Below the pieces are notes generated by a model, which did no database searches, was not told the origin of the DNA, and saw nothing but the letters and a program-made list of their open reading frames with translations. From assembly GCA_949317995.1 (NCBI GenBank), contig OX439044.1:52780166-52844165 (forward strand): 64,000 bases of DNA. Reading direction: 5' to 3'. Both the position numbers and the translations under genes were made by a program. This DNA is from Acholoe squamosa (taxonomy: Eukaryota; Annelida; Polychaeta; Phyllodocida; Polynoidae). This document shows positions 10,389 through 55,670 of the stretch, in pieces; positions within the stretch are counted from its first letter, which is position 1, and each line of letters begins with the position of its first letter.

Positions 10389-11739
10389 AATTTTTGGTAG
10401 TGATTCCAGGTTTATGCCCAGAATCTCCACTGAAAACATTCCACTTTTGGAAGTCAATAGGAACATTTGTTGCCATGGAAACATAGAAAATAAGCATATG
10501 ATATTATACCAATTTCTGGTTGCAATGGAAACCACTCCATGATTCCAAATGTGAATTTTCAGTCACAATCTTTTTGGAAATATTATACGGAACTCAGAAC
10601 CAATAAACAAACCTGAAAAAAATCTATCTTGAACGACTTTTATGGTAAAAACATGACATTTCTTGAATTGTCAGTATTTATGATAGAATATAATATGTCT
10701 AGACCTTATTTGCCATTTTCAATTTTACACACCAACCTAGGTTGAACAAGCAATTACAGCAAAACTACCTGGGATATCTTAGCTCAAGATATCTCATTTT
10801 AAAGCCTGTGACTTAGACTTAAAAGAAGCCAATTACCCCCTAGATGCATGTTTTTCCTCATCTGGTCACATAATATTATGTAGTATGCTACATTGCAGAT
10901 AACGCATGACTTATACACAAAGGAACAGCTGATTAACGGGGATAGACCCTTGCTGTATATCAGAGAATCTATCTGAAGATCACCTCATGCCCTAAGTACA
11001 AATCATATTATTAGATTCCATATGGAGAACATGATTACAGTGCCATTGCCATGATGACGGTAGCAGCAGCATTATCAATGAAGATGTGCAAGGTGGCCCT
11101 CTCACAAAATGTATCCATTACTGGTCTGAAAGTGTTTGGCTTATAGTTCCATAGTGTCAGTTGGTCCATAATGAAAAATCCACGTTCCTTTAAGATAAAG
11201 GGCATGACCTCTGAAATGGAGTTGGAAATATGTGGACAGATGAGGGGAAAGGGCCCTCCGAGGTAAAATGTGACTGAAGTCATCAGCTTTAAAATGAAGT
11301 ATAAAACTTGCAGGTAGTTTTTCTGGTCTCAGAGATATTAGTTCCTGAACATGGGATGACATAACTGTATCAATATAGCCAATAAGCTCTATCATTCCTT
11401 GTTTTATTTAAATCAGGCATCTAATTAGCATCATGATTCAAATAATCAATCAAAAAATGACTAATACTTTCCATACAATTGGCCACAGAATTGGATCTGG
11501 AAATGGTATCTCTTTGCTATTTTCAGCATTTAACTCCCCATGAATCATTTTATCAATTGACATTAATTTTTTCCTATTTGGACCGTAATATTGTTTGCCA
11601 TGGCAACATATTTTCTGTGATAACCCTTATTTAGGCCTAGTTTTGGATTCAAAACGTTCCATTTACATTCCAAATGCATAGGAAGTGCCAGAAAACAGTT
11701 TTTTGACAAAACCATCTTTTTCTTTATAGAAAATTACAA
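10389..11739. other. No recognised feature
   Basis: AT-rich sequence between the left inverted arm and the retrotransposon relic. Overlapping short frames on both strands at 11035-11395 have no recognisable motif. A TTGCCATGGAAAC word (10471) and a TTGCCATGGCAAC word (11596) resemble X-box palindromes, but nothing else supports a promoter. Confidence 0.4.
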
Positions 11740-13515
11740 ATGAAGACTGGAAAGTCATGTATCACCGGAAATAAAGCTAATAAGATAATAGATAAAGCTA
11801 GAAAAATTGTCTTCAAGAAACAAGTTGAAAACTATAGAAATGACCATCGTAAATACTGGAGAGTCATCAACAATCTAATACCGGGTCACCCCAACCGTGC
11901 AAAAGAAAAATCCCTAGTTGACCATAATAATAACAATACACCAATTGATAAAGATAAGGTACCCGATTTTATAAAACAATACTTTACCAATATAGGCCCC
12001 ACTCTTGCCCAAGATCTATATATACCATGGATACCTTATGATGACTATGTTGCTAATAAAATGGAACCTTTTGTAACTAACCTTCAGGAGGTCAAAAATT
12101 AGTACATGATATTAATGTAACAAAATCTTCTGCTATTACTGATATATCTAGTTCTGTATCAAACCACTATAGCTAATGGTATAATGTCAGGTAGAGACAA
12201 AGTGATCTGTGGTGTGCCTCAAGGATCAATATTAGGTCCTTTGTTATTTCTGATTTATGTAAATGATGTAATCAAATGTGTAAAACTGTGTAAAATTAAA
12301 TTATATGCTGACGATACTGTCCTTTATTCTGCAAATAATTCCTTTGTATCAGCCAAAGATGAACTCCAGTGTGACTTAGAAATGTATGAATCCTTGTGTA
12401 TCCAAAATAAGCTATCTATTAATGTGGCTAAACTAAAATAATGATATTTTCTTCAAGCTCCAGGAAGCTTAACACACTAACAGCAGATATGCGCTTAAAT
12501 GATCAATTATTACAAGTTGTATCCAGTTACAAATTCCTTGGTGTTATTTTAGACCCGCTATTACATTACAACTTACATTTATCTAATCAATTTAAAACTA
12601 TTGCCTATAAAACTTATAAACTGGGCCTATTAAGACGATATCTTGATGTAAAACTTGCTTTAAGAATATATAAATCAACAATACTCCCGTATATGGAATA
12701 TGCAGATATATGTTTTACTACTACCTTTGATAAGTACTTGGACCCACTACAGTATGCACAAAATGGATGTATCAAGATCTGCCTTGGGGTTCCTCATCTT
12801 ACCAATACTATTATATACACAATGTAACTAAAATTAATAAGCTTGCTGATAGAAGAAACATTCATTTATTAAATTATATGTATACTAGATGTCAGTGTGA
12901 TTCGTATAAGGTCACTAGAGTCCTAGCAACCAGGTTACACGATGCTCCCATTATGAAGGTTATAACACCTAACTGTATGTTATATGCTAACAGTGTGGAG
13001 GACTTTGGAGCCATAAGCCGGAATGCTCTGCCTGTGGGAAGAAGAACAATTTGAGGATGATTCCAAGAAATTTCTTGCATCTCTTATCCCATATGTAAAT
13101 GCATAGCGTACAAACATTATCTATTAACTCAAATAGACGATCTATTTCTTTTCCTTCATTGATTCTGTAAGTATTCCAAAGTATTTCAATGTGGCTCCTT
13201 AAAGATGCATTTATTCTACTATATTAAAAATATGTGCCAACGGTTTCGTATTTACTTTTGTGAAGTTAGGTAGGACCAGAAGAATCAACCCAACACTAAT
13301 TTAGTGGGGATGAGGTCCTCTTCCTTCTGTTTGACAAATTCTATCTGTTCATACCATTCATGTTCATAATTTTTTAAGCTAGTTTTGTTTGTACTTCATG
13401 TAATATTATGTTCTATACCAGTATCTAAAAGATTGGTGAGAATACGATGATCAGATTGTGTGTACTATGACTATGATATGTTCGATATGAATATGTCAAT
13501 AAAGTAAAGTTAAAC
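11740..13515 (+). pseudogene. Non-LTR retrotransposon reverse transcriptase relic
   Basis: Three open segments, 11740-12102, 12184-12441 and 12441-12827, carry successive parts of a LINE-type pol protein. The first matches the linker region before the RT (YWRVINNLIPG). The second has the RT motif VPQGSILGPLLFLIYVNDV and the catalytic YADD box (KLYADDTVLY). The third has the post-palm KFLGVILD motif and a thumb-like tract ending near YAQNGC. Between 12102 and 12184 the RT fingers and the first catalytic aspartate motif are missing, so the copy has an internal deletion plus frameshifts and cannot be active. No endonuclease is visible upstream, so the 5' end is truncated. AATAAAG at about 13499 may be the old 3' end. 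Clade is not assigned. Confidence 0.88.
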
Positions 13516-26358: not shown

Positions 26359-27211
26359 ATCACTGTTATGAGCTTGTGCAATATAACAGAAGTTTGTGTA
26401 ATATAGCAGAAAAGTTTTCTGTGAATCCACAGTAGAAAGTGCAGCATTCTCAAATACAGTGTTATTGTATAGTCACAAGTTTGTACCAGTATGATTATCC
26501 TACATGACTGGCCATCGTGCTGTCCTTACTACATATCTCAACTTGGTCGGGCGACCCAAATGCAATGACCATAACATTACAATCTGGTGTATATTTGCAG
26601 CAAATCTACTGGAACAATAGCTGCCAGCAACCTTTGCTATACAATGACAGTACTATGGTTTACAGTAGAAGTTACTCTAGATCAACAGGAAATGTTGCTG
26701 TGCCTTTACAGCAAATCAGTCAATCAACTGGAACCATAGCTACCAGCAACTTTTGCTTAAGATGTACAGTACTTACTACTTACAGTGTAGAGCATCTAGC
26801 AGTCTCTTTTGTACCTCTTGCTATAATTCTAGACCCATAGTTTCCGTAAATTTACAGTATTAGTTGCTTGAGCCTCAGTTGCAAGCAAAGGTTTCTGTAA
26901 ATTTACAGTATATATTCTATTGTTCATATAGAGCAAAGCATGCTGTTAATTCACATTAAATATTATTGTTTATTTTCAAGACACTTTCTCTGTAATTTTA
27001 CAACACATTTTGCTGTTAATTTAAAGAATATGCTTATGTAGATCTGACTGATCTTGCTGCATGATCACAGTGATTATTATTGTATGATTACTGTAGATCG
27101 TGCTGTGAAATTACAGTGACTCACCTCTGTAGATTTACAGCAAAAGGTACTGGAACTAGAGTTGCCATCAACATAGTGCTGTAGAATAACCCTGGCTATA
27201 ACTAACAGTGA
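26359..27211 (+). repeat. Dispersed repeat rich in CTGTAAATTTACAG palindromes, copy 1
   Basis: Continuous copy of the sequence found in two pieces at 52663-52812 and 55276-55670. Shared anchors are GAGAAAGTGCA / GTAGAAAGTGCA, GTTTGTACC, CTGTAAATTTACAGTAT, TGCTGTTAATTCACA, GCATGATCACAG and ACTAACAGTG at the end. The open frame at 26517-26840 lies inside it and is probably fortuitous. Confidence 0.75.
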
Positions 27212-27379
27212 TACTGCACAGAATTATGGAAATCGTGCCACTTCATTCTGATACATCTACTCACTCTTTGTCATCTCTAAATTGAAAGTTTCATTCCCAT
27301 CCTAATCCATAGACGCATTGGTTAATGGTCGATCTAGAATGCAAATTGATTCCATTCAGTTCTGCCTTTTTAAGAATGG

Positions 27380-27385
27380 AAGAAT
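27380..27385 (+). repeat. 6 bp target site duplication, left
   Basis: AAGAAT directly before the AGTAGTATATAAT start of the 10 kb element. Exactly repeated at 37446-37451, directly after the element. Confidence 0.85.
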
Positions 27386-27850
27386 AGTAGTATATAATGT
27401 ATCGGAATGTGACTATAGCTAACTACAGGATATTACTCACTGGGGATGCAGCCAATCAGCGTCCTCCATTTGGTCATGTGACCTGGACCCCCGTGGTGGG
27501 CACCTCATTTGCATAATAGACCACGCCCCTTAGCCAATCAGAGCCCTCCATTTGGTCATGTGACCCTCATTTACATAATAGGCCACACCCCTTTATGCTA
27601 ATGAGACCTCATTTGCATAATAGACCACGCTCCCTTTATCACGTAACCTAGACCCCCTGTGGAGTGATTTCCAAATGGAGGTCTCTGATTGGCTAATGGT
27701 CTAGGTCACATGACCCGATTATGTAAATGGGGTTGCCCAACCAAGTGACCTCCCTCATTTGTAAACAACACGTGATCTAGCCAAGTGACTTAACCATGTC
27801 GTCTCTTATTTGTAAACAATGGATCACGTGACCTCATTAGTATAAAGGTT
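27386..27850 (+). repeat. Left terminal inverted repeat and regulatory-site array
   Basis: The outer ~100 bp match the right end directly. Further in, both ends consist of shuffled copies of the same modules: CCATTTGGTCATGTGACC (E-box-like), CTCATTTGCATAATAGACC (perfect octamer ATTTGCAT at 27507-27514 and 27611-27618) and TAGCCAATCAG (CCAAT box), plus CACGTGA words. A TATAAAGG at 27841 sits at the inner border. Confidence 0.8.
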
Positions 27851-27943
27851 AGAGGTGAATGTGTGTGTAAAAAGGCAAGCACTTACCAAACAAATTTATT
27901 TTATTTTTTTTTATTTTGATAAATAATATTTACACATCATTAT

Positions 27944-28276
27944 TTACAAGTTGCTAAATACAAGTTCACACTCTCTACATAACATAGAATATCGGAGAGG
28001 ACCATGACAGAACCCACACATTGAGATGTACACATTCAACTTTTGTTTGTCATAATTCAGACTGTATATGGTGTAATCTTGGTGTACAACTTTGGAGCAA
28101 GTACCCTCTTGAAATGAAGGATAGGTGTAAGCCATATTTCCCATCCACATCTCATCGATATTACAAGTGAAATCCACTGAAGAACTATACCAAGTACCCC
28201 ATTCAGTTTGTCTGGACATGATACCTCTCAGTTGAGCGGCTGGTACACCGGGGTAAGGAACTTTACTACACAACAT
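27944..28276 (-). CDS. Unidentified 110-residue protein, first minus gene of the 10 kb element
   Basis: Open frame of 110 codons directly inside the left inverted repeat. It has evenly distributed residues, several tryptophans, and cysteines near its C-terminus (CGFCHGPLRY then MLCREC), which could bind zinc. The frame stays open about 19 codons upstream of the first ATG, to a TAG near 28335. A donor-like AAGGTAAATAC sits about 40 bases above that, so a short upstream exon is possible. TATA-like TTATAAAA lies on the minus strand near 28390. The downstream stretch 27895-27915 supplies AATAAA on the minus strand as a poly(A) signal. It resembles no family I know. A viral-type accessory protein is an inference from context only. 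Confidence 0.45.
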   Translation of the reverse strand: MLCSKVPYPGVPAAQLRGIMSRQTEWGTWYSSSVDFTCNIDEMWMGNMAYTYPSFQEGTCSKVVHQDYTIYSLNYDKQKLNVYISMCGFCHGPLRYSMLCRECELVFSNL

Positions 28277-28507
28277 TCGGTCAACACTACAATGTATTCT
28301 AGGATGTCTGTTTGCAAAGCTAATACTTTTCCAATGAATCTAGGTTCTTTTCAGTAAGTATTTACCTTGTTTGCCAGTATATCCATATTTTATAACCTTG
28401 AGCCCATAGAGGACACATGTGTGGTAAAGTATTCTATTAGTTAGAGTTATGAGTTATTATGTGGGTCCACTGGAAATAAAACTTAACGAAGGAATTCATT
28501 TTATTTT

Positions 28508-29053
28508 TTATTTGATTTTAACATATACCACCTTTTTGATGAGGTTCTCGACATGGAATTGATATATCACTATAGCTTTGTCTGTGGTGGTACCATCCAC
28601 TCTTTGAAATACATGTTCGAAACACACACTCAATGAATCAAATACAGCATTAGAAACAAAAACTTTATGAACACCTTGGTTTAACAACGGTACCTTAAAG
28701 AACAACACATCTGATGTATCTATTAATTTCCTTCGAAGGTTCGACCTCTAGGCTATTTCACAGTGTTGTGTTTTTTCTTTGCTGCAAATTATTTTACTGT
28801 ACATGGTGTTTCCTTTTAACTTGCAACAGTATGACAAGTAACTAATGCAATCGTCAGTGTCTGCGTTAGCTGTAGTTGCACCAGCACAGTCTTCTCCAGC
28901 GTGAGGGTGATCATCATCATCAGCAGCAGCAGTATTAGCAGCAGCAGCATCACCATCAGCAGCAGCAGCAGCAGTAGTAGCAGAACCATAGGATATCGGT
29001 AGGTAGTAAGGACATATATGAGACCCACCATCAACAGTAGCACCAACGTCAGC

Positions 29054-29085
<32 letters not shown>

Positions 29086-29412
29086 GCGTAGTAAACGCTA
29101 CACCACGTGGGTCGTAAAAACAAAAGCAGCTGCGGTAGCATCTTGAACAGTAGAAAAAGAAGCTGAAGCTGTAGTGTAGACGGTCTTTTACTCATGGTGA
29201 GGGTTAAAGAGAAAGTGTGAGTGAGCAGTAACAGCAGCAGTAGCAGCAGCAGCAGCAGCAGTAGCAGCAGCAGCAGGCATAATAAACGCTACATCACATG
29301 AGTCGTAAGCAAAAGCAGCTGCGGTAGCATCTTGAACAGTAGAAAAAGTAGCTGAAGCCTTGGTTCTTTTTATGTCCCTCAAGAGCTGTAGTGTAGTCGG
29401 TCTTTTACTCAT
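28508..29412 (-). pseudogene. Broken Ala/Asp-rich gene of the 10 kb element
   Basis: The minus strand shows a textbook start: GTATATAAGG near 29456-29466, then an ATG at 29412 opening MSKRPTTLQLLRDIKRTKA and an alanine-rich tract. The frame stops at 29188. A partial tandem duplication of the 5' UTR, start and early codons follows at about 29090-29225, with a missing segment and a small indel. Beyond it, a frame with alanine runs and DDDDHPHAGED-type acidic text stays open to a TAG near 28745. The same frame continues after the TAG to 28508 with ordinary-looking protein (RRKLIDTSDVLFFKVPLLNQ). Minus-strand AATAAA lies near 28490-28500. I read this as one gene damaged by duplication, frameshift and a stop; a spliced gene is the alternative. 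Function unknown. Confidence 0.45.
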
Positions 29413-29455
29413 GGTGAGGGTTAAAGAGAAAGTGTGAGTGAATTAAATTTTCTTT

Positions 29456-29470
29456 CTCCCTTATATACTC
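29456..29470 (-). promoter_or_regulatory. TATA box of the Ala-rich gene
   Basis: Minus-strand GAGTATATAAGGGAG lies about 45 bases upstream of the ATG at 29412, the normal distance for a short leader. Confidence 0.65.
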
Positions 29471-30469
29471 CTATGGAGATAAACCCTTTACTGTAGCTTG
29501 AATAGATGAAAGGTGGCTTTGACATTAAATCCCCTGTTAACAAGGGGGGGTTAAAAATAAGGAATTTCATAATACCTTACACCTGTAAACCATATTAAGA
29601 TAGTTATCACAGTTTTAACTCTCTGTAATCCCACCAAATACAGTTATCACAATACCTTTCCACCTCTTTGATGTTGCTACACAGAATGGAAGGGATCACC
29701 TGTAATCCCACAAAATACACATGTCACAGTGTCTTTCCTCCATTGTTTTACTTTGATCCTCATACTCCTAATGAGCGACATTGTTTTACACCTGTAAGCC
29801 ACATTAAGATATTTATCACAGTTTCTAACACCTGTAATCTCACCAAGATTCCTATTTTCAGTTGGATACTCCCCATAGATAAATCCCTTAGATAATTAAG
29901 TGTGGTTGATCCCAGAGGGAAAAGATAAAAGACTTAAAAGGATCTGATCCTCCTTTGGTAGGGTGTTTGTCCCCTGTTGTTAACCACCCCCTGTAGTTTT
30001 GTATACAGACTTTGAACGCTTTAATCACCTGATGACCCATAATTCCATTATACATGTAAGTCGTATTCAGGTAGTTAACACAGTTGTTACACCTGTTATC
30101 CCACCTGATACACTTAATCCAAAAACATTTTTCCCTTTTCATGTTGATTAATCCGGTCTGAAAGGATCCAGGTGAAAACAGGATTAAGTTTCCCTCTCAG
30201 TTATATAAATTGTAATGAGTAAGCCAATCAAAACACTTTGACTTATATTTTTCCCTGTTGTTATCCACCCCTGTAGTTTTTGTATACAGACTTTGAACAC
30301 CTTAATCTTCTAATGATTCATAATCCTCTTATACATGTAAGACATATTATGGTAACTATCACAGTTATCACCTGTTATCCCACCTGATACACTTATCTCA
30401 AAAAGCATTTTTCCCTTTTTCATGTTAATTAATCCAGGGGTGGAAGGAGCCAGGTGAAAACGCGATTAG
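29471..30469. repeat. Tandemly duplicated intergenic promoter block
   Basis: 29968-30213 and 30250-30468 (continued at 30689-30712) are diverged direct copies: CCTGTTGTTA-CC, TATACAGACTTTGAAC, ACACCTGTTATCCCACC-TGATACACTTA, CCAGGTGAAAAC and CTCTCAGTTATATAAA occur in the same order. Shorter fragments of the motif ACACCTGTAA-CC...CACCAA recur at 29575, 29690 and 29790. No gene was seen here; it separates divergent promoters at 29460 (minus) and 30705 (plus). Confidence 0.7.
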
Positions 30470-30684
30470 CCCGTTGAGGGCTAGCATCGACTATAGTCGA
30501 CACCATAGCAGGCCTAGCGTTGACTATAGTCAACACCATGGTAGGCCTAGCGCTGACTATAGTCAATGCCCATTATATCAGATTAATATAGGAATTGAAA
30601 ATAGGCTCGACCTCTAGGAACTATACTTTTTTCAGAGGCTGTCCCCATGGCGTAGGCAACAAATTTTGCTCTGCCCTTAAAGGG
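30470..30684. mobile_element. piggyBac-like MITE with 33 bp palindrome array
   Basis: Starts CCCGTTGAGGG and ends CCCTTAAAGGG, flanked by TTAG on both sides (30466-30469, 30685-30688). The duplicated promoter block supplies the empty site: the other copy reads straight through TTAA at 30184-30187. CCC...GGG ends at a 4 bp TTAN site are typical of piggyBac-class elements. Inside, CGACTATAGTCG, TTGACTATAGTCAA and TGACTATAGTCA palindromes recur every 33 bp, joined by CACCATRGYAGGCCTAGCG. Confidence 0.7.
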
Positions 30685-30699
30685 TTAGATCATTCTCTC

Positions 30700-30712
30700 A
30701 GCTATATAAAGA
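30700..30712 (+). promoter_or_regulatory. TATA box
   Basis: AGCTATATAAAGAGC, the same layout as CACTATATAAAGAGAC at 36368 and 36497. It was pushed 220 bp away from its upstream duplicate block by the MITE at 30470-30684. Confidence 0.6.
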
Positions 30713-30734
30713 GCCCTGATTTTTCTTGGAAGAG

Positions 30735-31220
30735 TAGATCACATCCACTCTCAACATCAGCGATAGCAGGGGCAGCAAAAGCAGGAGCATGTGTAGCGGA
30801 AGGAGCAAGTGCAGTGACAGCACCGGCAGGTGTATGTGTAGTAGGAGGATGTGTAGCAGCAGCAGCAACAACAGCAGCAGCAGCAGTAAGTACAGCAACA
30901 GCGACAGTAGTAGCTAGTAGTAAGAGTAGCAGCAGTGACAGCAGCAGTAGTAGCAGCAGGAGCAATAACAGCAACAGAAGTAGTAGTAGCAGCAGCAGCA
31001 GCAGCATCAGTAGCAGCAACAGGTGTAGTAACAACTGCAACACCAGTAGTAGAATAGTAGGTGGAGGTACAACAGCGTAGTAGGTGTAGGAAGTAGCAGC
31101 AGCAGCAGCAGTAGTAGTTTTAGTAGTAGTAGCCACAGCAGCAGTAGTAGAAGTAGTAGTAGCAGCAACAGCAGCAGTAGCGGTAGATGATAATCATAGT
31201 AGCAATAATAGTAGTAGTAT
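30735..31220 (+). other. CAG/GTA-rich possible coding region
   Basis: Downstream of the TATA box at 30705 the plus strand is a purine-rich run of CAG, AGT and GTA triplets. One frame is open across the TATA and on to 31080, reading alanine- then serine-rich with cysteines. Another frame starts with ATG at 30789 and stops at 30915. Because the sequence is nearly triplet-repetitive, neither can be called a gene with confidence. The alanine-rich tracts of the minus gene at 28508-29412 are built from the same triplets, so the two may share an origin. Confidence 0.35.
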
Positions 31221-31297
31221 TAGTAGGTGTAACAGAGAAAATATCAGTATTACCCCTGTAGGCTACTTGGAGAGTTACTAACACCCGGCGCCAGGGC

Positions 31298-31561
31298 CCT
31301 GTCTTTCCTTATCTTACGGACAGATACGGACGTCCGTACGTCAAATACGGACCTCCCTATGTTGGTAAATCAAATACGGCTAGGGGGGGTACCAGGTGGT
31401 ATCCTAAAAGTGACATATGGACATCCGTATGTGACATACGGACGTCCATATGTGATATACGGACGTCCATATGTGACATATGGACGTCCGTATGTGTGGT
31501 CCATATCTGATATTATTCTGTATCATTTTAATACATTCTAACATAAGGAAAGACAGGCCCC
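31298..31561. mobile_element. MITE with 21 bp-period palindromes
   Basis: GGGCCCTGTCTTTCCTTAT at the left is inverted at the right as ATAAGGAAAGACAGGCCC. CCAG precedes the left end and follows the right end, a possible 4 bp duplication. Inside, four direct 21 bp units start at 31412, 31433, 31454 and 31475. Each is a near-perfect palindrome around GGACGTCC (first unit GGACATCC). Related TACGGACGTCCGTA occurs near 31326-31340. Confidence 0.75.
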
Positions 31562-31569
31562 AGTACTGG

Positions 31570-32183
31570 CTATAAAAACCCTCATTTCCAGTAAGTCTTT
31601 CTTTTCATATGAAGTTATAACTTGTCTCTTGTGTTGCTCACAAGTGGTCTTTGAAGTACAGTGCTAAAAATTGGGAATTAAGTAGGTACCTAATTGGGAG
31701 AAGTCAGTCAGTGTACTATACTATAGAGTGTGGAACATGAGGAGGTACCTGCTGTATTATTAGTATACTAACCATATTCGGGTTAAAATTGTTGTTACCA
31801 CTTCATTCTACCAACATGCAAGCAGTAGTTGTTCTGGTAGCACAAATTTTTGGATCGATTTTTAAGTTATTTTCAACGACTAAGTGGTGTGGAGTGTTAA
31901 ACCTTATATAGAGCAAAGAAAAAGGTGATTTTAAAATTTCTTCTTATTCTTTTTGTTGGTGACTCCCCAATTACAACACACGGTTCGTCGTCCTAAATCA
32001 GGAAAGCAAATTGTATGTAGCTGTCAGCTACTACAAGGGTAAAAACGTCATCCACATGCGCAGGTACAAAGGATCCCAAAAGACTCTAACACAGGTCGGT
32101 GTGACACTTTTAAACAAGGGGGCTTAAAGAACTGGGTTACAAAAAAAGAAGAGATTATCCTTGAATTTCTTGATAGAATTTGA
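31570..32183 (+). pseudogene. PC4-like transcriptional coactivator gene, frameshifted
   Basis: GGCTATAAAAACC at 31572 is a TATA box. From 31963 the plus strand is open to a TAA at 32129-32131 with text such as KLYVAVSYYKGKNVIHMRRY. The overlapping next frame, ending at 32183, continues with LKNWVTKKEEIILEFLDRI. Together they follow the PC4 (p15) single-stranded-DNA-binding fold in order: a strand-rich R/KYVxV...FKGKxxIDIREY half, then a G-x-S/T-L strand and a C-terminal helix. The break is at the G run 32118-32122, so one base was lost or gained there. An in-frame ATG at 31816 opens about 30 codons but is separated from the domain by TAG and TGA, which would need an intron. PC4-type proteins occur in eukaryotes and in several large DNA viruses. 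The family call is my inference by eye. Confidence 0.55.
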
Positions 32184-32823
32184 TTGAGATGTGGTTTTAT
32201 ATGTCCTGTATGTAGGTGTATATACTTTGTGTAGATATGTTGTGTATATAGGTAGAGGTAGATAGATAGAAAGAAAGAAAGATAAATAGATGAATAGATA
32301 GATAAATAGATAGTTATTGAAAAAAAAAATCTCTTCACATATAAGTAACTCAGTGAAAATAGATCAACATATCTGGTTTTTCTTTTAAAACCAAAAAGTC
32401 AGGGCAATTCTACTTCTACTACCTATGGTTGACATGTGTTTCCCATCCTTTGATTTATAAATGATATAAAATACAATGCTCCTAGATTACAGAGAGAACG
32501 ACCTGCAGTTTTTAGGGAATTAAATAAAAAAGATAAGAATGGTATGTGGTTGCCATGTCTAGGCAAAGCATGGGACACTTAATTTTGGTCATGGTTATAA
32601 TAGAGCTTGAATTGTGTCACGTCTAAAAACGTGTCCAGTTTTTTTTCCACTTACGCCCTATCATTTTTCCAATTGATCAAAATAATTTGTTTAAATAACC
32701 CATCCTATTTGGCTTTTAAACAGTTGTTCCCCCCTTTTATGTTGCCGACAGACTATTGATAGGTGACCCTGCCCACTAGAGCGTGAATGCACCACCCCCT
32801 CATTACTACAATTTACTTATGAT
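32184..32823. other. Intergenic with AGAT/GAAA simple repeats and a short coding-like remnant
   Basis: AGATAGATAGAAAGAAAG-type repeats occupy 32258-32315. On the plus strand about 42 codons ending near 32580 read like protein (PRLQRERPAVFRELNKKDKN) but start after a stop and have no ATG. They may be an isolated exon fragment. Confidence 0.35.
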
Positions 32824-33332
32824 TTACAAATGGGGGTACTCTATAGAACCCCTGAAGGGTGTTCCTCCACAACAGACAGCGTAGATCTCCCTAACATACA
32901 CCCCATTCATTGCCCTAACCGGTACTTGTGAAACTGTCACCTCCTTTAAAAAGGTGTAATCAATGTAACACTCATTGATAACTACATCAGCTTATTCCAA
33001 ATGCGTAAAAAGCCGTATAAATGTAAAGTCTACAACGTTTAACAGTGTTTTGGAACAAAAATAAGATCATATATATGCAAAGTCCGATCCAATTTAGACC
33101 CAAAAATGATTAAATACCACCAAGTTTTTTCACTACAGGACTAGCGCCTCCATCTGGTGGCAAACAGTGGTACTACTACTCATAGTACTGTATGCATCAC
33201 TGATGCATTGAGTCGATATCTTTAATTCAAAAAGGGTGGTTCTGTAGAGCGTAAGAAAAGCTAGCTGTAAGGGGTGACGCTCCGTTTGGTTGGAACGTGC
33301 AGACTGAACTGAACCTTGGTGGCTAGATTCAT
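32824..33332 (-). CDS. Probable spliced gene, repeat unit A
   Basis: The minus strand from 32991 down to a TAA at 32824-32826 is open for 56 codons with strong protein character (NECYIDYTFLKEV, VYVREIYAVCCGGTPF). It has no ATG at its start. The boundary reads TTTGGAATAAG before CTGATG, which could be a splice acceptor. Upstream, TATA-like GCTATAAAGGCT (33384-33395, minus) precedes an ATG at 33332 opening NLATKVQFSLHVPTKRS and a stop after 23 codons. The acceptor-side exon is paralogous to 34028-34218. Function unknown; the exon join is not established. Confidence 0.4.
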
Positions 33333-33383
33333 AATGGGGAGGTTTACATGTAACTCCGAAATCAGTTTTGAAAAAATGGTGTA

Positions 33384-33395
33384 GCCTTTATAGCG
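33384..33395 (-). promoter_or_regulatory. TATA-like box
   Basis: Minus-strand GCTATAAAGGCT about 55 bases upstream of the ATG at 33332. Confidence 0.45.
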
Positions 33396-33623
33396 AGGCT
33401 AATGCGAAGATTATTTATGTATGATTGTGAATTTTAAATCACTGTAGTTCATATAACACTTATCCAGGTAGTATTAAGCTGTGTTGTGTTAAATAAAATC
33501 AGAAGCTATACATCTATAATGCATTTGGTTGTGCGTATACTACATTAGGAAGTATAGAAGACTTATGTTGCTGCCACCTGGTGGTGAATGATTTATTAAA
33601 CCATTGTCGTAAAGTAACTTAAG

Positions 33624-33725
33624 ATGGCGCCACTTTTTCTATTTGAGAAAACCATTTCATCAATGAAACATGTATTTCATCGCGATAAATTCAACTTTGT
33701 GTGTAGACGTTTGATCATAGTTTAA
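33624..33725 (+). CDS. Short ORF with overlapping poly(A) signal
   Basis: AAGATGG gives a good start context at 33624. The frame runs 33 codons (MAPLFLFEKTISSMKHVFHR onward) to TAA at 33723-33725, and AATAAA overlaps the stop at 33724-33729. Compact stop/poly(A) overlap is usual in small DNA viruses. It could also be a last exon or chance. Confidence 0.3.
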   Translation: MAPLFLFEKTISSMKHVFHRDKFNFVCRRLIIV

Positions 33726-34027
33726 TAAAGAAGCATGTTGTCAGACATGTCTTAATGTCCCAACAAAGTATGTGTTTATCATTAATAATGTGGAATATAC
33801 AGCTGTTTTGTTTACACTACCATTTTAATGGCACTATATTTATGACAAGTACCATGCATCTGTATGTCCAAATACACACCCCACCCCTCTCATTGCACTG
33901 AGAGAGAAGGTGGGGTAGCTTTTTGGTGGGCACTAGCAGCCTTGACTGATTCACGGTTGAGGCCCCCTCTTTATAAAGGGGGGGTGTAGTGACCCTCACT
34001 ACTATCTTGACTAATTTAGTCGAGAAG

Positions 34028-34440
34028 TTGTGACCCCACAATAGACAGCGTTGACCTCAGTACCATACCCGCTGAGGTCCAATGCCCCAATTGAACCAAA
34101 GGTAATAAATAGTTCCTCAACTTCTCACTAGGTGGTGTTACTAGGGGTTAGGTTGGACTATTTGCTCACCATACACGCATTCATCAATGTAAATTGGACC
34201 GACATCGCTGGTGTACTATATTAATTTCATTTAGGTATTATATAAAAAATACAGACCTAACGGCTGAAGTGGTTTCACTCGCAAAAAAAAGCTTCAGGTA
34301 GGCTATAAACAAGGTCAACATTGGCTGACACCTTTTTGGTAAATGTCAAAGTTTAACAAGTAGTATTAACTGTGGATGATGTGAGTGTGGGCGCTGCTTA
34401 GGCGGCTGGTCACCATCCATAGCGATGAGGCTACCATAAG
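34028..34440 (-). pseudogene. Repeat unit B of the minus-strand gene family
   Basis: TACACCAG before CGATGTCGG (near 34212) resembles a splice acceptor. The following frame opens like unit A (PIYIDECVYGEQ) and then meets TAG/TAA. A later frame carries SGYGTEVNAVYCGVTTSRLN, aligned with VYVREIYAVCCGG of unit A. Upstream, ACTTTGACATTTACCAAAAAG then GTGTCAGCC aligns with the donor region of unit C. An ATG near 34420 opens DGDQPPKQRPHSHHPQ. Stops show that this copy is damaged or that more introns exist. Confidence 0.35.
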
Positions 34441-34959
34441 CCAGGCATCAGTTACTAGTGCTATAACAGCCTGTTTTTACAGGTTAGACTATTACGGCAC
34501 ACTGGCCCAACTGTCTCAGTAATGTAATACTGAGGGAAACGCTGTCACTGGGTAAAACGCTGTCATAGGTTCTATACAGAACCACCCCTTTTAACCAAAG
34601 TTAATCATCTTCTTTATCATGGTGTGCATGATGCTTCATTTAGCACATCATGCTGTTTGTGTTGCATTTATATCATACCGTAACAGTGTGTTTAAGTGCC
34701 AGGGTATAGTGGGATTGAATTCAATCAGCACCCAGGGACTTATACACACACACTATATCCATGGTTTTTGTATTTTCCCACTAGTTGCCCCCACTATGTA
34801 CTGTGGAGGAGATTTCGGTCAGCATTCATGTAAACCGAGATGTAATGATAGCTTATCTCTGTGTAAACCTGTGCGAATTTGGTTTAGTCATTGCTAAAAA
34901 ATTCAGACTTTACATCTGTATTGGATTTAACCAATAAAAAAAAGGTGTAAATGTAATAT

Positions 34960-35230
34960 AAATACGGTCAGATTGACTTACACCATTTTGGTAGATGTCT
35001 TAGTTTTATAAGTACTATTCAGTGTGCAATCTTTAAACATGAGCACTGTAATTACAGCTGGTGATCTGTTCATTTTGGACAGGTCAACCATGTGGCAAGA
35101 CAGTCTGCACGTGTGACAAACATGTCAATGTAGTGATCAGGCACCACTCACTTACCTCACCCTCTTTTATCCAACGTCATCACCACACTCATCCTTTTAA
35201 TTTTTTATTTAAAAGAAAATAAGGGAAAAA
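34960..35230 (-). CDS. Repeat unit C, likely exon with splice donor
   Basis: Minus-strand ATG near 35083 opens NRSPAVITVLMFKDCTLNST and runs to a consensus-like donor ATGGTGTAAGTC near 34987. The corresponding position in unit B is ACCAAAAAGGTGTCAGCC. A second donor, GGTGAGGTAAGTG, lies near 35158. It follows a small ATG at about 35184 (MSVVMTLDKRG then stop) that has a homologue near 36655 (MIMEVMPHERG then stop). The units appear to be tandem copies of a gene with short 5' exons. No family recognised. Confidence 0.35.
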
Positions 35231-35529
35231 TAAAATAAGATGTAATCATTTATTCATGAAAAATTCTCATTTACATAATAAATAACCCCTAGGAGGTCAC
35301 ATGACCTTTGATACCTTTATCCAAGTCTCTTTTTCAACACATTTATTCAAGTGACTTTTCATAGGTAGACAAATAGTTCAATATTCACCACTTTTTCATC
35401 AGTTACCTAGTTATCTTTCAGGATGAATGTTATTATGAGTACAAATGTCATAAAACATTAAAAGTGTATAAATAAAATAACGAAAACATTACTTTAAATG
35501 TCAACATATTTACTTTGTTCACAGTTATA

Positions 35530-35841
35530 TTATAGAATTTCTACTGAATAGGTCTTGCTTTTGTCAGCCAATACACGTTTATGGTCTATATTGAAAAGAT
35601 ACGTTATCCGTTCTTTCACATTCAGGGAATTGACAATATCAAATATGACATACACCCTTGTAAATTCATCCCAAATATCACCGACAGACATCCTGGAAAA
35701 TACCCACTCTCCATATATAGAAATAAGTTCTTCCTTGTTGGAGTAGCATCCATGATATTTAATCTCCGACTTATGGTTTTTACATCCATAACATTCATCT
35801 TTTACTGTCCTATTAAACTCCCTGTGTAGTAAATAATGATA
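35530..35841 (-). CDS. Unidentified protein with clustered cysteines, no early ATG
   Basis: The frame is open for 104 codons, from just after a TAG at 35842-35844 to the TAA at 35530-35532, with convincing composition. It has a Cys-rich start (CYGCKNHKSEIKYHGC), then SNKEELISIYGEWVFSRM and a C-terminus rich in hydrophobic strands (RVYVIFDIVNSLNVKERIT). The first in-frame ATG leaves only 53 residues, so the true start is probably on a 5' exon. TTACTACACAG near 35832 would be a good splice acceptor, though using it shifts the frame. TATA-like ATATATG lies on the minus strand at 35923-35930. The CxxC...C pattern suggests a small metal-binding fold. I cannot name the family. Plus-strand frames here are its shadows. 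Confidence 0.5.
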   Translation of the reverse strand, partial: YHYLLHREFNRTVKDECYGCKNHKSEIKYHGCYSNKEELISIYGEWVFSRMSVGDIWDEFTRVYVIFDIVNSLNVKERITYLFNIDHKRVLADKSKTYSVEIL

Positions 35842-35922
35842 CTAACATTGTTGGTGATGATGTGTACAAGTCACAAAAAAAGAAGTTGTGTCTTTTAGTC
35901 TAGAGTCACAGTCATATATACC

Positions 35923-35930
35923 CTTCATAC
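35923..35930 (-). promoter_or_regulatory. TATA-like box
   Basis: Minus-strand GGGTATATATGAC, about 80 bases upstream of the open frame at 35841 and 45 bases upstream of an ATG near 35850 that opens a 12-codon frame. Confidence 0.4.
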
Positions 35931-36110
35931 TTTGCATTCTCACCTTACACTCAGAGTTTGACACGTTTTTCACAGTTAACACTTGAAAGAAAAGAAGCGT
36001 TTTATTTTATCTCCCCTTAGCATGTTGCACACACAATGTGTGAATGCTTGTTGCTATCACAATATTTGAATGAATAAGTACAAATAAAAGTAAAGAAAAA
36101 AACACGAAAG

Positions 36111-36510
36111 GTGGCGCCACCCACTCATTACGTTACTCTAACGTTTTGCTAGAAATAGGTAGTATTTTTAACTTCTACTTGACCTGAGTTAGAGTGTTGT
36201 AAGATTGATGGTGATTTATTGGTGATCAACATATATAAACTATGGATATATCAGTTTTATAATATTAAACATTTGGGCTAGGTGGCGCCACCCACCCCTT
36301 ACGTTGCACTGTTGTTTTACTCGTGTCACTCTTACACACCTTTTATGTGTCTACTCCCTCACACATCACTATATAAAGAGACTACTGTCTAGGTCATATG
36401 GCGCAACCCACTCATTACGTTACTCCATCGTTTTACTAGCGTCACTCCACGTTTTTGCCTTACACACCTTTTATGTAGCTTCTCCCTTGCATATCACTAT
36501 ATAAAGAGAC
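36111..36510 (+). promoter_or_regulatory. Triplicated promoter-like cassette
   Basis: GGTGGCGCCACCCACTCATT, GGTGGCGCCACCCACCCCTT and a variant with ATGGCGCAACCCACTCATT begin near 36111, 36281 and 36398, each followed by ACGTT and a TTTTRCT word. The last two are followed by ACACACCTTTTATGT and then CACTATATAAAGAGAC (TATA at 36370 and 36500). GGTGGCGCCACC is itself a palindrome. Downstream of the last TATA an ATG at 36568 opens 36 codons, but that region is also the start of a minus-strand small ORF. Confidence 0.55.
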
Positions 36511-36659
36511 TAGCATAGAGAAAGTAGTGGGGTGTTCGTGATAGTAGTGCCTCCCTCCTGTTGTCAAATGTTATGTCACAGTCTTCACAAAGATAAACTA
36601 CTGACACCTTCTCCTCCTTCATCCTCTTTCATGCGGCATCACCTCCATAATCATCCTTG

Positions 36660-36960
36660 TAAATTTTTTTTTTATTAAAAAATTTTATACCCAGTAAAAA
36701 CCCACCCCTGTCCCAAAGGGGCAGGGTAGGTTCACTAATTAAAATAATTGATTTTCTAAAAAAACAAAAAGGCTCCTAAATTTCTTTTTTTTGGGCTAGC
36801 TTTGGCTTGCCTTAAAAAAAAAAACTAAAGGCCCCAAAATCTTTTTTTATTTTGTCCTCTCATAAAAAAAAGGTACATACAATAGTAAAACCTACCAATG
36901 CTTAAATATTTCTTCTCGAGAAAAACTCAGACCTTTTATGCATAATTAACCCCACCCCTT
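36660..36960. other. Low-complexity T/A runs, no gene
   Basis: Runs of T and A (36665-36700, 36750-36870) with AGGGGCAGGG words. No coding signal. Confidence 0.5.
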
Positions 36961-37445
36961 GTTTACAAACAAGTGCTCACTTGACTACACCACGTGATCA
37001 AGGGGGTATGACCTATTATGTAAATGAGAACTAATCCTCTAATTAGGTCATAATGGCCGCAACAAGGGGTCACATGACTACACTGCATGATCAAGGGGGC
37101 TTGGTCTATTATGCAAATGAGCACTCATCCCCTAATTAGGTCATAATGGCCGCTACTTATTAGCATAAAGGGGTGGCCTATTATGCAAATGAGGGGTCAC
37201 ATGACCAAATGGAGGTCTCTAATTGGCTAAGGGGGTGTGGTCACCATTGGGTCCAGGTCACTAATCCCCTAATTAGGTCACATGGTGGTCACCACCAAAT
37301 TAGGTCATGTGGTGATATCACATGATCACCTAAGTAGGTCACATTGGGGTCACGTGACCAAATGGAGGCCTCTGATTAGCTGCATCCCGGGTGAGTAATA
37401 TCCTGTAGTTAGCTATAGTCCTGTTCCGATGTATTATATACTACT
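36961..37445 (-). repeat. Right terminal inverted repeat and regulatory-site array
   Basis: The outer ~100 bp match the left end. Octamer ATGCAAAT occurs at 37111-37118 and 37183-37190. CCTAATTAGGTCA words recur at 37039, 37130, 37265 and 37300. TCACGTGACC and TCACATGACC E-box-like words and an ATTGGCTAA CCAAT box are present. The module order differs from the left array, so the ends evolve by module duplication. Confidence 0.8.
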
Positions 37446-37451
37446 AAGAAT
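37446..37451 (+). repeat. 6 bp target site duplication, right
   Basis: AAGAAT, identical to 27380-27385. Confidence 0.85.
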
Positions 37452-46454: not shown

Positions 46455-46592
46455 AGTTAATGCCTTGATCGAGTGTACCAGTAATAATTAATAACGAGAC
46501 ATTATAATAATTATAACAATAAATATGGAATAACTAAGAAGACATTGGGTTTGGTGAGAATTGACTTTGTCAGTATCAATCCTATACATGCC
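46452..46592 (-). repeat. Split direct repeat B1
   Basis: Second copy of B, directly abutting A2 as expected for the circular-junction template. Confidence 0.9.
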
Positions 46593-46638
46593 AACAACCG
46601 CCAAACACAATGTAATACATTCCATAATAGGTATAGCA

Positions 46639-47400
46639 TTAATTCATTACATCTAAAGCCAGCAAACTGTCCTTAGACTCATGTAAGTATTTAAAAATAA
46701 CATTAGATTTCCAATTGGCTCGCCTCATAATATCCTGAACACTTAAGCCTGCATTTTTCAATAAAGTTGCACCACCATGCCTAAGAGAGTGACTCGAAAC
46801 TCTACTAGATAGACCACACTGAAAAGCAATTGCTTTTACCCTCGTATTTACATAGTTATATTGCAACGGTCTAGACTGAATGGAAAATAGATACCTGCTT
46901 TTCTTATAGGTCTTTTAAGATACACAACATAGGGAGACTTGCCAAATTGGTCAGTTTTAGATGTTATAACTTTAATCTCTATACAATCAGAAGAAACTTT
47001 AACATTCCTCTTTAAGAAATTATGAGGCGACTGGACTACATGTCCAACCCTGAATACACCCCTGTAACATAACAATATGGCAGACCAAAATACCACATCT
47101 TTCATAAGATCCAAGTTAAGTTTAGATTTAATTTGAACCATATCACTAGGACTCAGAGGGTAGGTTGTACTACCAGACCCCTTACACATCCTCTCAATAC
47201 CATCAAGGTTTTGTTTTTACCACAAAATTACCACTATAATCTATGTAACCTTTTAATTTCTGGTAGTACCACACAGCAGACAAATAATTTCTGACTGAAA
47301 TAGGTTTAATAAAATCAGACAGGTATACACAATATAAGGAAGCTTGAGACGGAGAACAAGGAAGAGGGGTAAAGTTAAATTTTTTACAATTTTTTTTTGT
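46639..47400 (-). pseudogene. Tyrosine recombinase, frameshifted
   Basis: The enzyme would cut and join the circular DNA intermediate at the target. In minus order: a core-binding region with SVRNYLSAVWYYQKLKG at about 47310-47240, then the catalytic domain. The first catalytic arginine is in LLCYRGVFRVGHV, the H-x-x-R box is HSLRHGGATLLKNAG and the nucleophile tyrosine is in VIFKYLHES. The two halves lie in overlapping frames (47189-46848 and 46866-46639), so one frameshift lies near 46860-46930. The catalytic residues themselves are all present. A stop precedes the first half. The B1 repeat begins 46 bp past the stop. Confidence 0.88.
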
Positions 47401-47448
47401 ACCTACTAAACTGTTGTCTGCGAGTTTTACGAGTGGATTCAGCTACAC

Positions 47449-48002
47449 CTATACAAGAATTTTTTCCTTCTCCTCTCCAACTTCCTGAAGTCTGCAATCA
47501 TAACAACACATGTTATATTCACTCAAAACCTTTTTGCATTTCCTTGGAACACCTTTATAATTTAGTCTAGACAAATGGTCAGCTAAGATATTATCCTCCG
47601 ACCTAATATACATAGAATATATATCGATATTATGGATAAAACATATCCAAAAGATCTCTCTTAACCAAGCCATGCACAATTTATTCTTGGATCTACCTGT
47701 ATTTAACATAGCCAAGACCTGCATGTTATCGGTGATACAATGAACTCTCGTATTACTAAAAACTCTCAACCAACGCTTCAGGCCCACCATGACAGGATAA
47801 AGTTTATATACATTAATATTCCTGTGGTGGGTCCTGAGATTATCTAGCTTAGGCGCTGGGGTAAAATGACCACAATTATAACATAGGGTCAGTATCATTC
47901 CAAGTACCATAGAGGTAATCCTTACCGAACCAAGCTCCAAAGCCTTGTATAGAAGAATCAGAATACATAGGGGTACATTCATTATCATTCAAAATGATAC
48001 TC
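47449..48002 (-). pseudogene. RNase H domain of the Ngaro-type element
   Basis: The first catalytic aspartate strand is visible in one frame near 47945 (MYSDSSIQGFGAWFG) and the rest in the frame of 47988-47449. The latter includes VHCITDNMQVLAMLNTGRS with the D-N pair and MYIRSEDNILADHLSRL with the ADxLSR terminal motif typical of DIRS and gypsy-like RNases H. The split between frames shows a frameshift near 47870. It degrades the RNA of the replication hybrid. Confidence 0.85.
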
Positions 48003-48999
48003 CTACAATTGAAAACTCCACAAAAACTCATTCCACCACATCAAGTCTTTCTGGGTTTCCTTGTCTAGCCTAATAACACCTCTAGTCTTAGCCCTGGCAC
48101 AGAGATCAAATAACCTTCTGCTGAAAGTCCTACCACCACGTACTACTTGTGAACAGAAAGACATTAAACCCCCAATTTTCTGGAGAGTCTTCTTAGATAC
48201 AAACTTCTTTCCTAAGCATTCATTTAGTGCCAGACTCAATTTATCTAATTTCTTTTGGGGTAAAGACAACTCCATACTAGTGGAATCAATGGTTATACCC
48301 AGGAATACACATATCTGGTTAGGTTCAGTAACTTTTTCCTTCGAAACAATGAAACCCATGTACTCCATACATTCAATCAGGATATTCCTTTTACGTAAAC
48401 AATCCTCTGCAGTTTTAGCAATAATAATAAAATCGTCCGAGTAAATAACTATCCTATCAACACCATAAAATTTTGCCACTACAGTAAAAAAATCAGATAT
48501 TCTATCAAAAATATATGGAGCACATTTCAGACCAAAGGTCAAGCGATTGCTCTAAAAAAAATTCTTCTCCATCACCAAAGTCCCAACTGAAACCTTGATA
48601 GCCCACATGTGGACCATACACATTGATACTTCTATAGGCGGATTTTAAATCTACAACACACATATAGTCATTTTTATCCAGTTGACATGTAACCGTATTT
48701 ATGGAGTTATAAGAGAAGCTTTTTGACGTAGTGTCCATAAAGTTATTAATAGATATCCCTGCAGGCATGCTACAATCAGTGATAGGTCTCAATTTACCAT
48801 TAGACTTTTCTATACCACCTAACAAGTGAACACACTTGGGTTTATAACCTGTCTTTGTAACCAAGCCTTGGGACCACTCGTCCCTGATAATATCACACAT
48901 TTCGCTATAGAACCTATGTTCTACAATAGATTTATAATTTTTACAATCATAAGCTGTATCACAGCCTGGGTCAACTATTTTGAACCCAAGCCACACCAT
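48003..48999 (-). pseudogene. Reverse transcriptase of the Ngaro-type element, frameshifted
   Basis: The minus frame at 48999-48505 carries fingers and palm: GLVTKTGYKPKCVHLLGGIE, LRPITDCSMPAG and the catalytic motif A YMCVVDLKSAYRSI. The frame of 48542-48003 continues with LTFGLKCAPYIFDRISDFF and the YSDD catalytic box in RIVIYSDDFIIIAKT, then FLGITIDS and a thumb/connection region. The two overlap near 48545, at a run of A residues (49 bases of shared region), where one base change restored neither frame. Motifs A and C are intact. The protein copies the element RNA into DNA. Confidence 0.92.
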
Positions 49000-49380
49000 A
49001 GGAAATCTGAGTCTATCTGGTTAATATTAATAATATCCGACTGCCTCAGAAAACTAGCTAGTCTGCAAGGTAAAATTTGAGCTTTTCTACCATAGATGAA
49101 ATGCTCACACTTGCAAATACCATTGACACAACTATCATAAACCCTGATGCTGGGGTCTATTAACACACTCCACTGAAAACAATGGATCGACCTCGCCCTG
49201 TACTGGGCTGCTATAAGTCATAAAAAGATTCTTGATATCTACACCAGATTCATGAATATCATTTTTATTATTCTCACACGAAATGATAGGAACGGAGGGC
49301 TCAGGAGGATCTACCGTATGTACTATATTAAAACCAGGCACCAATATATCAGATTTTAACATAGGACCCTGCCTAAGACC
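49000..49380 (-). pseudogene. N-terminal part of the pol ORF
   Basis: Frames 49362-49135 and 49166-48975 overlap and lead into the RT frame. They contain acidic and Ser/Pro-rich text then a Cys-containing DSCVNGICKCEHFIYG segment. No enzyme motif was recognised; it is the linker between gag and RT, broken by at least one frameshift. Confidence 0.6.
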
Positions 49381-49386
49381 AAAATT

Positions 49387-50410
49387 CTAGTCCTTCTTAT
49401 TCTTCTGGCACCTATCCTTGCCATGGCTAGACAAACCACAAACATCACAGGCATGTCGATACCTACATGGGTCCTCCTTACACCCCTCCACCCTGTTAAA
49501 AGCATAGCAAGTGCGTCTAGACTGCTTGGATTTGAAGCTTTTTGGTTTGACTACACCCGCCTTCTGGGCCTGAATCGTTCCATCATAGGATAGATGCCTA
49601 AGAATATCTTCACTTCTAACATCACTGAAAGACTCTACACCATCAGAATTTGCCCTGTTTTTAACAGATGAATCGTATGCCACTAGGGCCTTGAGAGTGT
49701 ATATCTTGGTTGAGGATTTTTCCACCAATACCTCTATGTGTTAAACTACATCGAAGACATCCTCCCCCTCCCCTATCAATTGTTTCATCATTCTTACGTT
49801 AACCAACAGCAATTTCTCAATACTATCAAGCTTCTCACCCTTTTTAAGAAAATTCTTTTGGTCAAACATACCTCTAGCTCTGTGTGCATGACGACGATCA
49901 TTTCTAGAAGAGATTGACCCTGTAGATGTGGAAGAATTAGACGAAATGCTACGGTAAGACGACGATCGACTCGTGGATCCAAGATGGCGTTGCCTTTTTT
50001 CTGTCACTATGGAGCCCACGGTAGTCAGGTGACCATTGTCGGACACGCCCCCATTGCTTGGTTACTGCGTCGTCAGTCGAATGTTTACAAACATCTCCAC
50101 GTGCTCGAGCTGTCTTCGTCTCACCACCCGCTATAGTAGTTGCACGGCTTAGCGCCTGCCCCTCCAATAGGAACTTGATATCAGCCAGCTGCTGTTCCAT
50201 ATGAGCAGTACGATCCTCCAACTCCCCAATCGTCTGGTCAACGGCTGAATCCAATGTAACCCCTGTAGCAGTCAGGGAAGATAGCTCCTGGCCACCCCCA
50301 TTGGATCTCACACCGCTCGAATTCCTTGAATTGGCTATATTTTTAGTTTTCTTAGGTGATTTCTTGGTTTTAGACCTTGGTCCGCCACCAGCAGTTCCTT
50401 TCCTACCCAT
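49387..50410 (-). pseudogene. gag-like ORF with zinc-knuckle-like C-terminus
   Basis: The likely start is the ATG at 50410 (MGRKGTAGGGPRSKTKKSPK), inside the 50476 frame and next to repeat A1. The basic N-terminus is followed by a coiled-coil-like stretch (IGELEDRTAHMEQQLADIKF). Near 50050 the reading shifts to the frame of 50046-49741, with a Ser/Arg-rich tract and KLDSIEKLLLVNVRMMKQL. After an in-frame TAA at 49741 the same frame continues to 49387. It ends in cysteine/histidine clusters (CYAFNRVEGCKEDPCRYRH, then CDVCGLSSHGKDRC) that resemble the CCCH-type finger plus knuckle seen in gag proteins of DIRS-order elements. It would package the element RNA. Confidence 0.75.
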
Positions 50411-50455
50411 AGTGTTAAGGTAGATACCGTATTTACTCGACAAACTGGAAAACCA

Positions 50456-50660
50456 GTTTAAAAATTCCAGTACCACCCAGCGTGGTGTATGCCGTCCGAG
50501 TATATGAAGCCAATTGACCGTTAGTTCAACTGCTGGAGCTTATATACTGGAGGAAATGTTATGTGTGACGTCACAGAAACCCATGCGCCCAGGGTAAAGT
50601 AGTACCAGCTTATCACTCATTAATTATATATATATATACCCGGGGGTATATAGTCCCATA
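50456..50660 (-). repeat. Split direct repeat A1 (5' end)
   Basis: Upstream copy of A on the minus strand, 205 bp, nearly identical to 46250-46454. The gag ATG lies 46 bp inside it. Confidence 0.93.
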
Positions 50661-55275: not shown

Positions 55276-55670
55276 TATCTCAATGATAGAGTATCTAGCA
55301 GTGTTTTTTTTACCTATATATACAATACATTTGTTGTAGATTAACAGAACATTTTGCTGTAATTCTGCACCCATAGTTTCTTTAAATTTACGGCAATAGT
55401 TGCTGGAACCAGAGTTGCCAGCATATTTCTGTAAATTTACAGTATGTTTTGTTGTTCATTTACAACAAAACCTGCTGTTAATTCACAGAAAATATTGCTG
55501 TTTATTTACAAGACAATTCCTGTAATTTTACAATATGTTTTGCGGGCAATTTACAGCAAATTGATTTTATCTGTTTCTGAATATTGATCTTACTGCATGA
55601 TCACAGAGGTTGTTACTGTATGGTAACTGGAATTAGAGTTGGAATTAGAAATAACCCTACCACTAACAGT
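55276..55670 (+). repeat. CTGTAAATTTACAG-family repeat, copy 2 right part
   Basis: Matches 26770-27211 through TTGCTGGAACCAGAGTTGCC, CTGTAAATTTACAGTATG, CTGCATGATCACAG and ACTAACAGTG. Confidence 0.65.

Follow-up and report, generated by a model that had tools for sequence, protein, structure and literature searches.

A 10 kb element with Maverick-type ends and no detectable core genes in the polynoid annelid Acholoe squamosa

We analysed a 64,000-nucleotide stretch of the Acholoe squamosa genome (the window: contig OX439044.1 of assembly GCA_949317995.1, positions 52,780,166 to 52,844,165 of the forward strand) and found that it carries a 10,060 bp element (27386-37445; all positions are counted from the first letter of the window) with the end motif, terminal inverted repeats and 6 bp target-site duplication of Mavericks, also called Polintons, and with no detectable core gene of that class. 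The reading to which we give a probability of about 0.58 is that of a non-autonomous Maverick/Polinton element, now decayed, that was moved in trans.

The boundaries of the element can be read directly. It lies between two copies of AAGAAT, begins with AGTAGT (27386-27391) and ends with ACTACT (37440-37445); when one terminus is inverted, the two agree at 87 of 98 positions. The initial annotation had given these flanks, the coordinates, the length and the count of matching positions, and re-measurement returned the same values; the AG...CT ends that it reported are present as well, in a form that it understated, since the full ends read (AGT)2...(ACT)2. At the base composition found here, two given places agree over 6 bases by chance with a probability of about 3e-4. 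AAGAAT occurs 36 times on the plus strand of the window, and an extra copy is found just beyond the left end (27372-27377). Among the 217 AGTAGT...ACTACT pairs lying 3-30 kb apart in the window, a single one has identical 6 bp flanks, and that pair is the element. Furthermore, when inverted matches with arms over 3 kb apart were built across the window from exact 14-base seeds and ranked by seeds per diagonal, 29 were obtained, of which the top five and nine of the top ten join the two ends of the element, and a 30 bp core of the termini, GACTATAGCTAACTACAGGATATTACTCAC, was found at these two ends only when up to 3 mismatches were allowed (mean 0.00 in 100 shuffles). Collectively, these observations confirm that the element is real.

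Inward of the inverted repeats, each end carries an array of scrambled short repeats, and several blocks of the right array match the left one in inverted orientation. Near-palindromic TCA(C/T)(A/G)TGA sites are concentrated here: each 515 bp end has 4 of them, compared to 3 for the interior (9 kb) and a single one for the left flank (27 kb). The octamer-like ATTTGCAT is present twice per end, is absent from the interior and occurs five times in the left flank, while CCAAT, with three copies per end, is also denser at the ends. An adenovirus-like origin was considered on account of these two motifs, but the NFI palindrome sought with them is absent from every zone counted, and nothing is therefore claimed on such an origin. 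The Jukes-Cantor distance between the two arms is 0.12 (11 of 98 positions differ, 7 of them by transition), which means that the insertion is not recent if, as we assume, the arms were identical when the element inserted. An old insertion fits the broken reading frames.

We compared these termini with those of known systems. According to PMC8097293, (AGT)2//(ACT)2 is the commonest end motif among vertebrate Mavericks, and a repeated motif of this kind permits a jumping-back step in protein-primed replication; the same source gives 6 bp duplications, inverted repeats of 46-1,447 bp and an intact size of 12,723-24,620 bp for these elements, and places their accessory regions outside the core modules. 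The element shares with them the conserved end motif, the 6 bp duplication and inverted repeats of a length within the range, and its gene-like remains lie toward the ends, where Maverick accessory regions lie. It differs from vertebrate Mavericks in its size, which is below the minimum of the 12.7-24.6 kb intact range, in its core genes, which were not found, and in its ends, which are near-identical over 98 bp and then give way to scrambled subterminal repeats. As the core genes were not found, we do not class it as an autonomous Maverick. Duplications of 6 bp are also made by three superfamilies that can be set aside by their terminal features: IS3EU ends in TA..TA and GingerRoot in TA..TA or TG..CA (PMC10045372), in contrast to the AG..CT of the element, and Dada, which targets small RNA genes, has no terminal inverted repeats (PMC3706591). 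The claim of Polinton-class termini in the initial annotation is thus supported more strongly than before, by an exact vertebrate Maverick motif and by the exclusion of these three superfamilies. General sizes and gene lists are given in PMC4028283 and PMC8969392, and passages of PMC6431247 on Polintons hold nothing decisive for the element.

Core genes were sought in the translated pieces of the element. From 199 pieces of at least 28 aa, 20 low-complexity ones were dropped and 41 of 28-31 aa were omitted, and the 138 that remained were scanned against Pfam, NCBIfam and PHROGs at E<=0.1. These scans returned no family named for polymerase B, integrase, packaging ATPase, protease or capsid. 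The families that did match (13 in Pfam, where about 14 are expected by chance, 3 in NCBIfam and 14 in PHROGs) are no more than chance provides, and most of the PHROG matches are without function, one being labelled only 'virion structural protein' (E 0.071). As a control of sensitivity, ten pieces from elsewhere in the window (8 retroelement-like by eye and 2 merely long) were scanned, and two of them matched RVT_1. Because this sensitivity is low, the scans support an absence of core genes but do not prove it, and it is within this limit that the earlier claim of an element lacking the expected Polinton genes holds. Adintoviruses, if Maverick-like, would share integrase-type ends; the element differs from them in that no capsid, polymerase or integrase was found in it.

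BLAST at E<=0.01 gave no match between the element and other parts of the window, the terminal DNA core was not found in IMG/VR, and no relative was confirmed in IMG/VR contigs or prokaryote genomes with short exact peptide patterns, which reach close relatives only. A 7.6 kb part of the element matched a phage record (66.9%, about 250 bases); this match was taken as low-complexity because it falls inside a triplet array. Scanning the window for Rfam families (at gathering scores) and for tRNAs returned nothing.

The middle of the element has little resemblance to coding sequence that was lost recently. The 3-base signal there ranges from 0.25 to 1.01 in all 12 segments of 600 bp (starts 31501-34801). 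For the 177 segments beyond the element, the median is 0.95 and the mean 1.21, while all 13 segments of a decayed retroelement-like stretch (starts 46501-50101) lie between 1.56 and 5.58. The middle of the element thus has no signal comparable to the one that this decayed coding stretch of the same window has kept.

The features of the element are collected in the table below. The stronger gene-like remains are found at 27.9-29.4 and 35.5-35.8 kb, toward the two ends.

Table. Features of the element and its flanks (positions in the window)
Feature	Position	Strand	Remarks
Left target-site duplication	27380..27385	.	AAGAAT; direct reading
Left terminal inverted repeat	27386..27483	+	98 bp; starts AGTAGT, Maverick (AGT)2 end motif (PMC8097293)
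Left subterminal array	27484..27845	.	Short repeats in scrambled order, among them the motifs CATTTGCATAAT, CCAATCAG and TCACRTGA; inner limit by eye
110 aa open frame	27944..28276	-	CxxC...CxxC; AATAAA just downstream at 27915, 27905 and 27900; no longer than expected by chance
Remains of a possible leftward alanine-rich gene	28511..29442	-	TATA 29467, ATG 29412, AATAAA 28512/28505 at end; predicted model
About four diverged repeat units	29560..30480	.	TTACACCTGTAA...TTATCACAG...CACCTGTAATCCCACC; between leftward TATA 29467 and rightward TATA 30703
GCA/GTA triplet arrays	30855..31186	.	Downstream of the rightward TATA box
54 aa piece	31963..32124	+	Sub-threshold match to PC4 coactivator domain (Pfam E 0.0016, one piece)
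103 aa piece	35533..35841	-	CYGC...H..C motif
Three promoter-like repeat units	36105..36520	+	TGGCGCCACCCACTCATTACGTTAC; two of three also with CACTATATAAAGAGACTA; putative role
Right subterminal array	36966..37347	.	Includes 93 bp tandem pair 36968-37153; inner limit by eye
Right terminal inverted repeat	37348..37445	-	98 bp; ends ACTACT
Right target-site duplication	37446..37451	.	AAGAAT; direct reading

At the left, protein searches with the piece starting at 27947 gave nothing, and no homologue of the 110 aa frame was found. The alanine-rich gene would consist of three pieces (29191-29442, 28751-29191 and 28511-28747), the last two separated by a stop, and its 5′ part shows a partial tandem duplication (29118-29224 versus 29307-29441). 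As the element holds 20 TATA-like sites and 24 AATAAA sites on its two strands, the spacing of such signals around this gene is weak evidence. The repeat units between the leftward and the rightward TATA box may, judging by their position, form a two-way control region.

At the right, the 103 aa piece is 79% identical over 81 residues to an unnamed ENA protein (P0001; 111 aa, from a 509 bp contig). Of the 17 differences, 11 are conservative, compared to the 33-38% expected under single-base mutation models in which each difference is one base change (P 0.008-0.022), and this hints at protein-level constraint on the piece in some lineage of the family. Searches with the piece, alone or aligned with P0001, found P0001 only, and matches to RNA ligase (E 0.027 and 0.069) were dropped as weak. 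When the structures of the 110 aa frame and of the 103 aa piece were modelled, the mean predicted local distance difference test (pLDDT) scores were 41 and 44, respectively, and for this reason neither model was used in a fold search.

The match to PC4 is close to what chance would give over 138 pieces, and we keep it as a lead only. The piece found nothing meaningful in the PDB (best E 1.8), and a search of PMC11071296 for passages gave no occurrence of PC4 or Maverick. Two further repeats were observed in the interior. At 31294-31561, inverted arms of 23 bp (GGGCCCTGTCTTTCCTTA...), separated by 222 bp, enclose repeated TACGGACGTCC units in a nested palindromic arrangement that looks like a small inserted miniature inverted-repeat transposable element. 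The non-coding right half holds a 153 bp direct repeat, 71% identical, at 34223-34374 and 34876-35026.

Under the favoured reading of a non-autonomous Maverick-class element moved in trans, what was kept are the cis-acting ends: the (AGT)2 motifs would serve protein-primed replication and the inverted repeats would serve the integrase, while the subterminal repeats could bind host or helper factors. Both the helper dependence and the mode of replication are inferred. A complete Maverick in the same host would have supplied a protein-primed polymerase B, by which the linear DNA was copied, and its retroviral-type integrase would then have inserted the copy and duplicated AAGAAT. Remnants of a few accessory-type genes may have been kept toward both ends, with the core genes lost or never present.

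Several observations weigh against this reading. It rests on a single copy in the window, and the end motif was compared with that of vertebrate Mavericks. The 98 bp of near-identical arms are short, though inside the Maverick range. Only one of the ten control pieces scored above its curated cut-off, which makes the scan weak for decayed genes. The gene-like remains are themselves weak: outside the triplet arrays, open-frame lengths are not above chance, the longest frame being 131 aa, a length reached in 26 of 200 shuffles with the arrays cut out. The 3-base signal rises modestly over the 110 aa frame (1.2-1.7) and over the 103 aa piece (1.7-2.1), and the higher values inside the element fall on triplet arrays. 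Finally, the position of the PC4-like piece, should it be genuine, is in the middle and not toward an end.

The main rival, which we hold to be clearly less probable, is that the element is an internal-deletion derivative: a formerly complete Maverick would have lost its core during or after its last transposition and then decayed, leaving an accessory region and the termini. Consistent with this, 96% of 3,511 vertebrate Maverick loci are degraded (PMC8097293), and it is toward the ends, where Mavericks have their accessory genes, that the better remains of the element are found; the nested repeats and duplications, furthermore, show that the interior has been rearranged. However, about 3.6 kb of interior (31.5-35.1 kb) is still in place without core-family matches or 3-base periodicity.

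The boldest proposal is that of a dedicated Maverick satellite of about 10 kb. Such a lineage would have a conserved gene cassette and a two-way control region of its own, would have kept only the ends needed for replication and integration and would take the polymerase, the integrase and perhaps the capsid from a helper Maverick. Its dependence on the helper would parallel that of virus satellites on helper viruses, and we consider this proposal unlikely. Quite unlikely, in our view, is a distinct small virus-like or satellite lineage that has Maverick-type ends and conserved genes of its own (the alanine-rich gene, the CYGC gene and possibly a PC4-like one). The public protein 79% identical to the 103 aa piece, with its conservative changes suggesting constraint, argues for such a lineage, as do the way TATA, ATG and AATAAA are spaced in the leftward gene and the possible two-way control region; but the open-frame lengths are within the shuffled range, the element has many TATA-like and AATAAA sites, the PC4 match does not rise above chance, and the short exact patterns found no relatives in IMG/VR contigs. 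The initial annotation had offered the choice between a derivative mobilised in trans and a new lineage. We favour the derivative because the better remains lie toward the ends and the middle is without 3-base periodicity, and the new lineage is not supported at present; a single copy does not separate these readings, nor the deletion derivative from them.

Subterminal repeat arrays such as those of the element are common in DNA transposons, and one could suppose a non-autonomous element of another superfamily whose Maverick-like ends are coincidental. Several superfamilies make 6 bp duplications (PMC10045372 and PMC3706591), and the duplications of MuDR-type elements are 4-10 bp (PMC10045372); nevertheless, the differing ends of IS3EU and GingerRoot, the lack of inverted repeats in Dada and the exact six-base motif, which fits Mavericks, make this very unlikely. 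A chance arrangement of repeats with no transposable element is barely credible, as only the single copy speaks for it and the long inverted match, the end motif and the duplication are together unique in the window.

The window holds other repeats outside the element. Broken frames on the minus strand at 46851-50539, a DIRS-type retroelement by eye and presumably of the tyrosine-recombinase kind, keep a 3-base signal, and one piece of them matches RVT_1 (E 1.2e-9). Two frames of 131 aa at 11707-12824 on the plus strand appear by eye to be remains of a retroelement without long terminal repeats (non-LTR) and match no Pfam family at E<=0.1. At 7634-9126 there is a cluster of tandem repeats whose periods range from 35 to 141 bases. 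Similar short tandem repeats (TGTTAATTTACAA...) stand far apart at 26941-27023 and 55453-55511, and probably belong to one host repeat family.

Mavericks are regarded as transposons and as viruses at once. A full-text search by such names found no paper on non-autonomous or mini-Polintons or Mavericks, other wordings and subscription papers being outside its coverage. If the element is a single deleted copy, it is an ordinary one. A Maverick replication end motif that is kept without core genes would, in turn, suggest that the Maverick machinery acts in trans, and the existence of a satellite of an animal Maverick would become testable.

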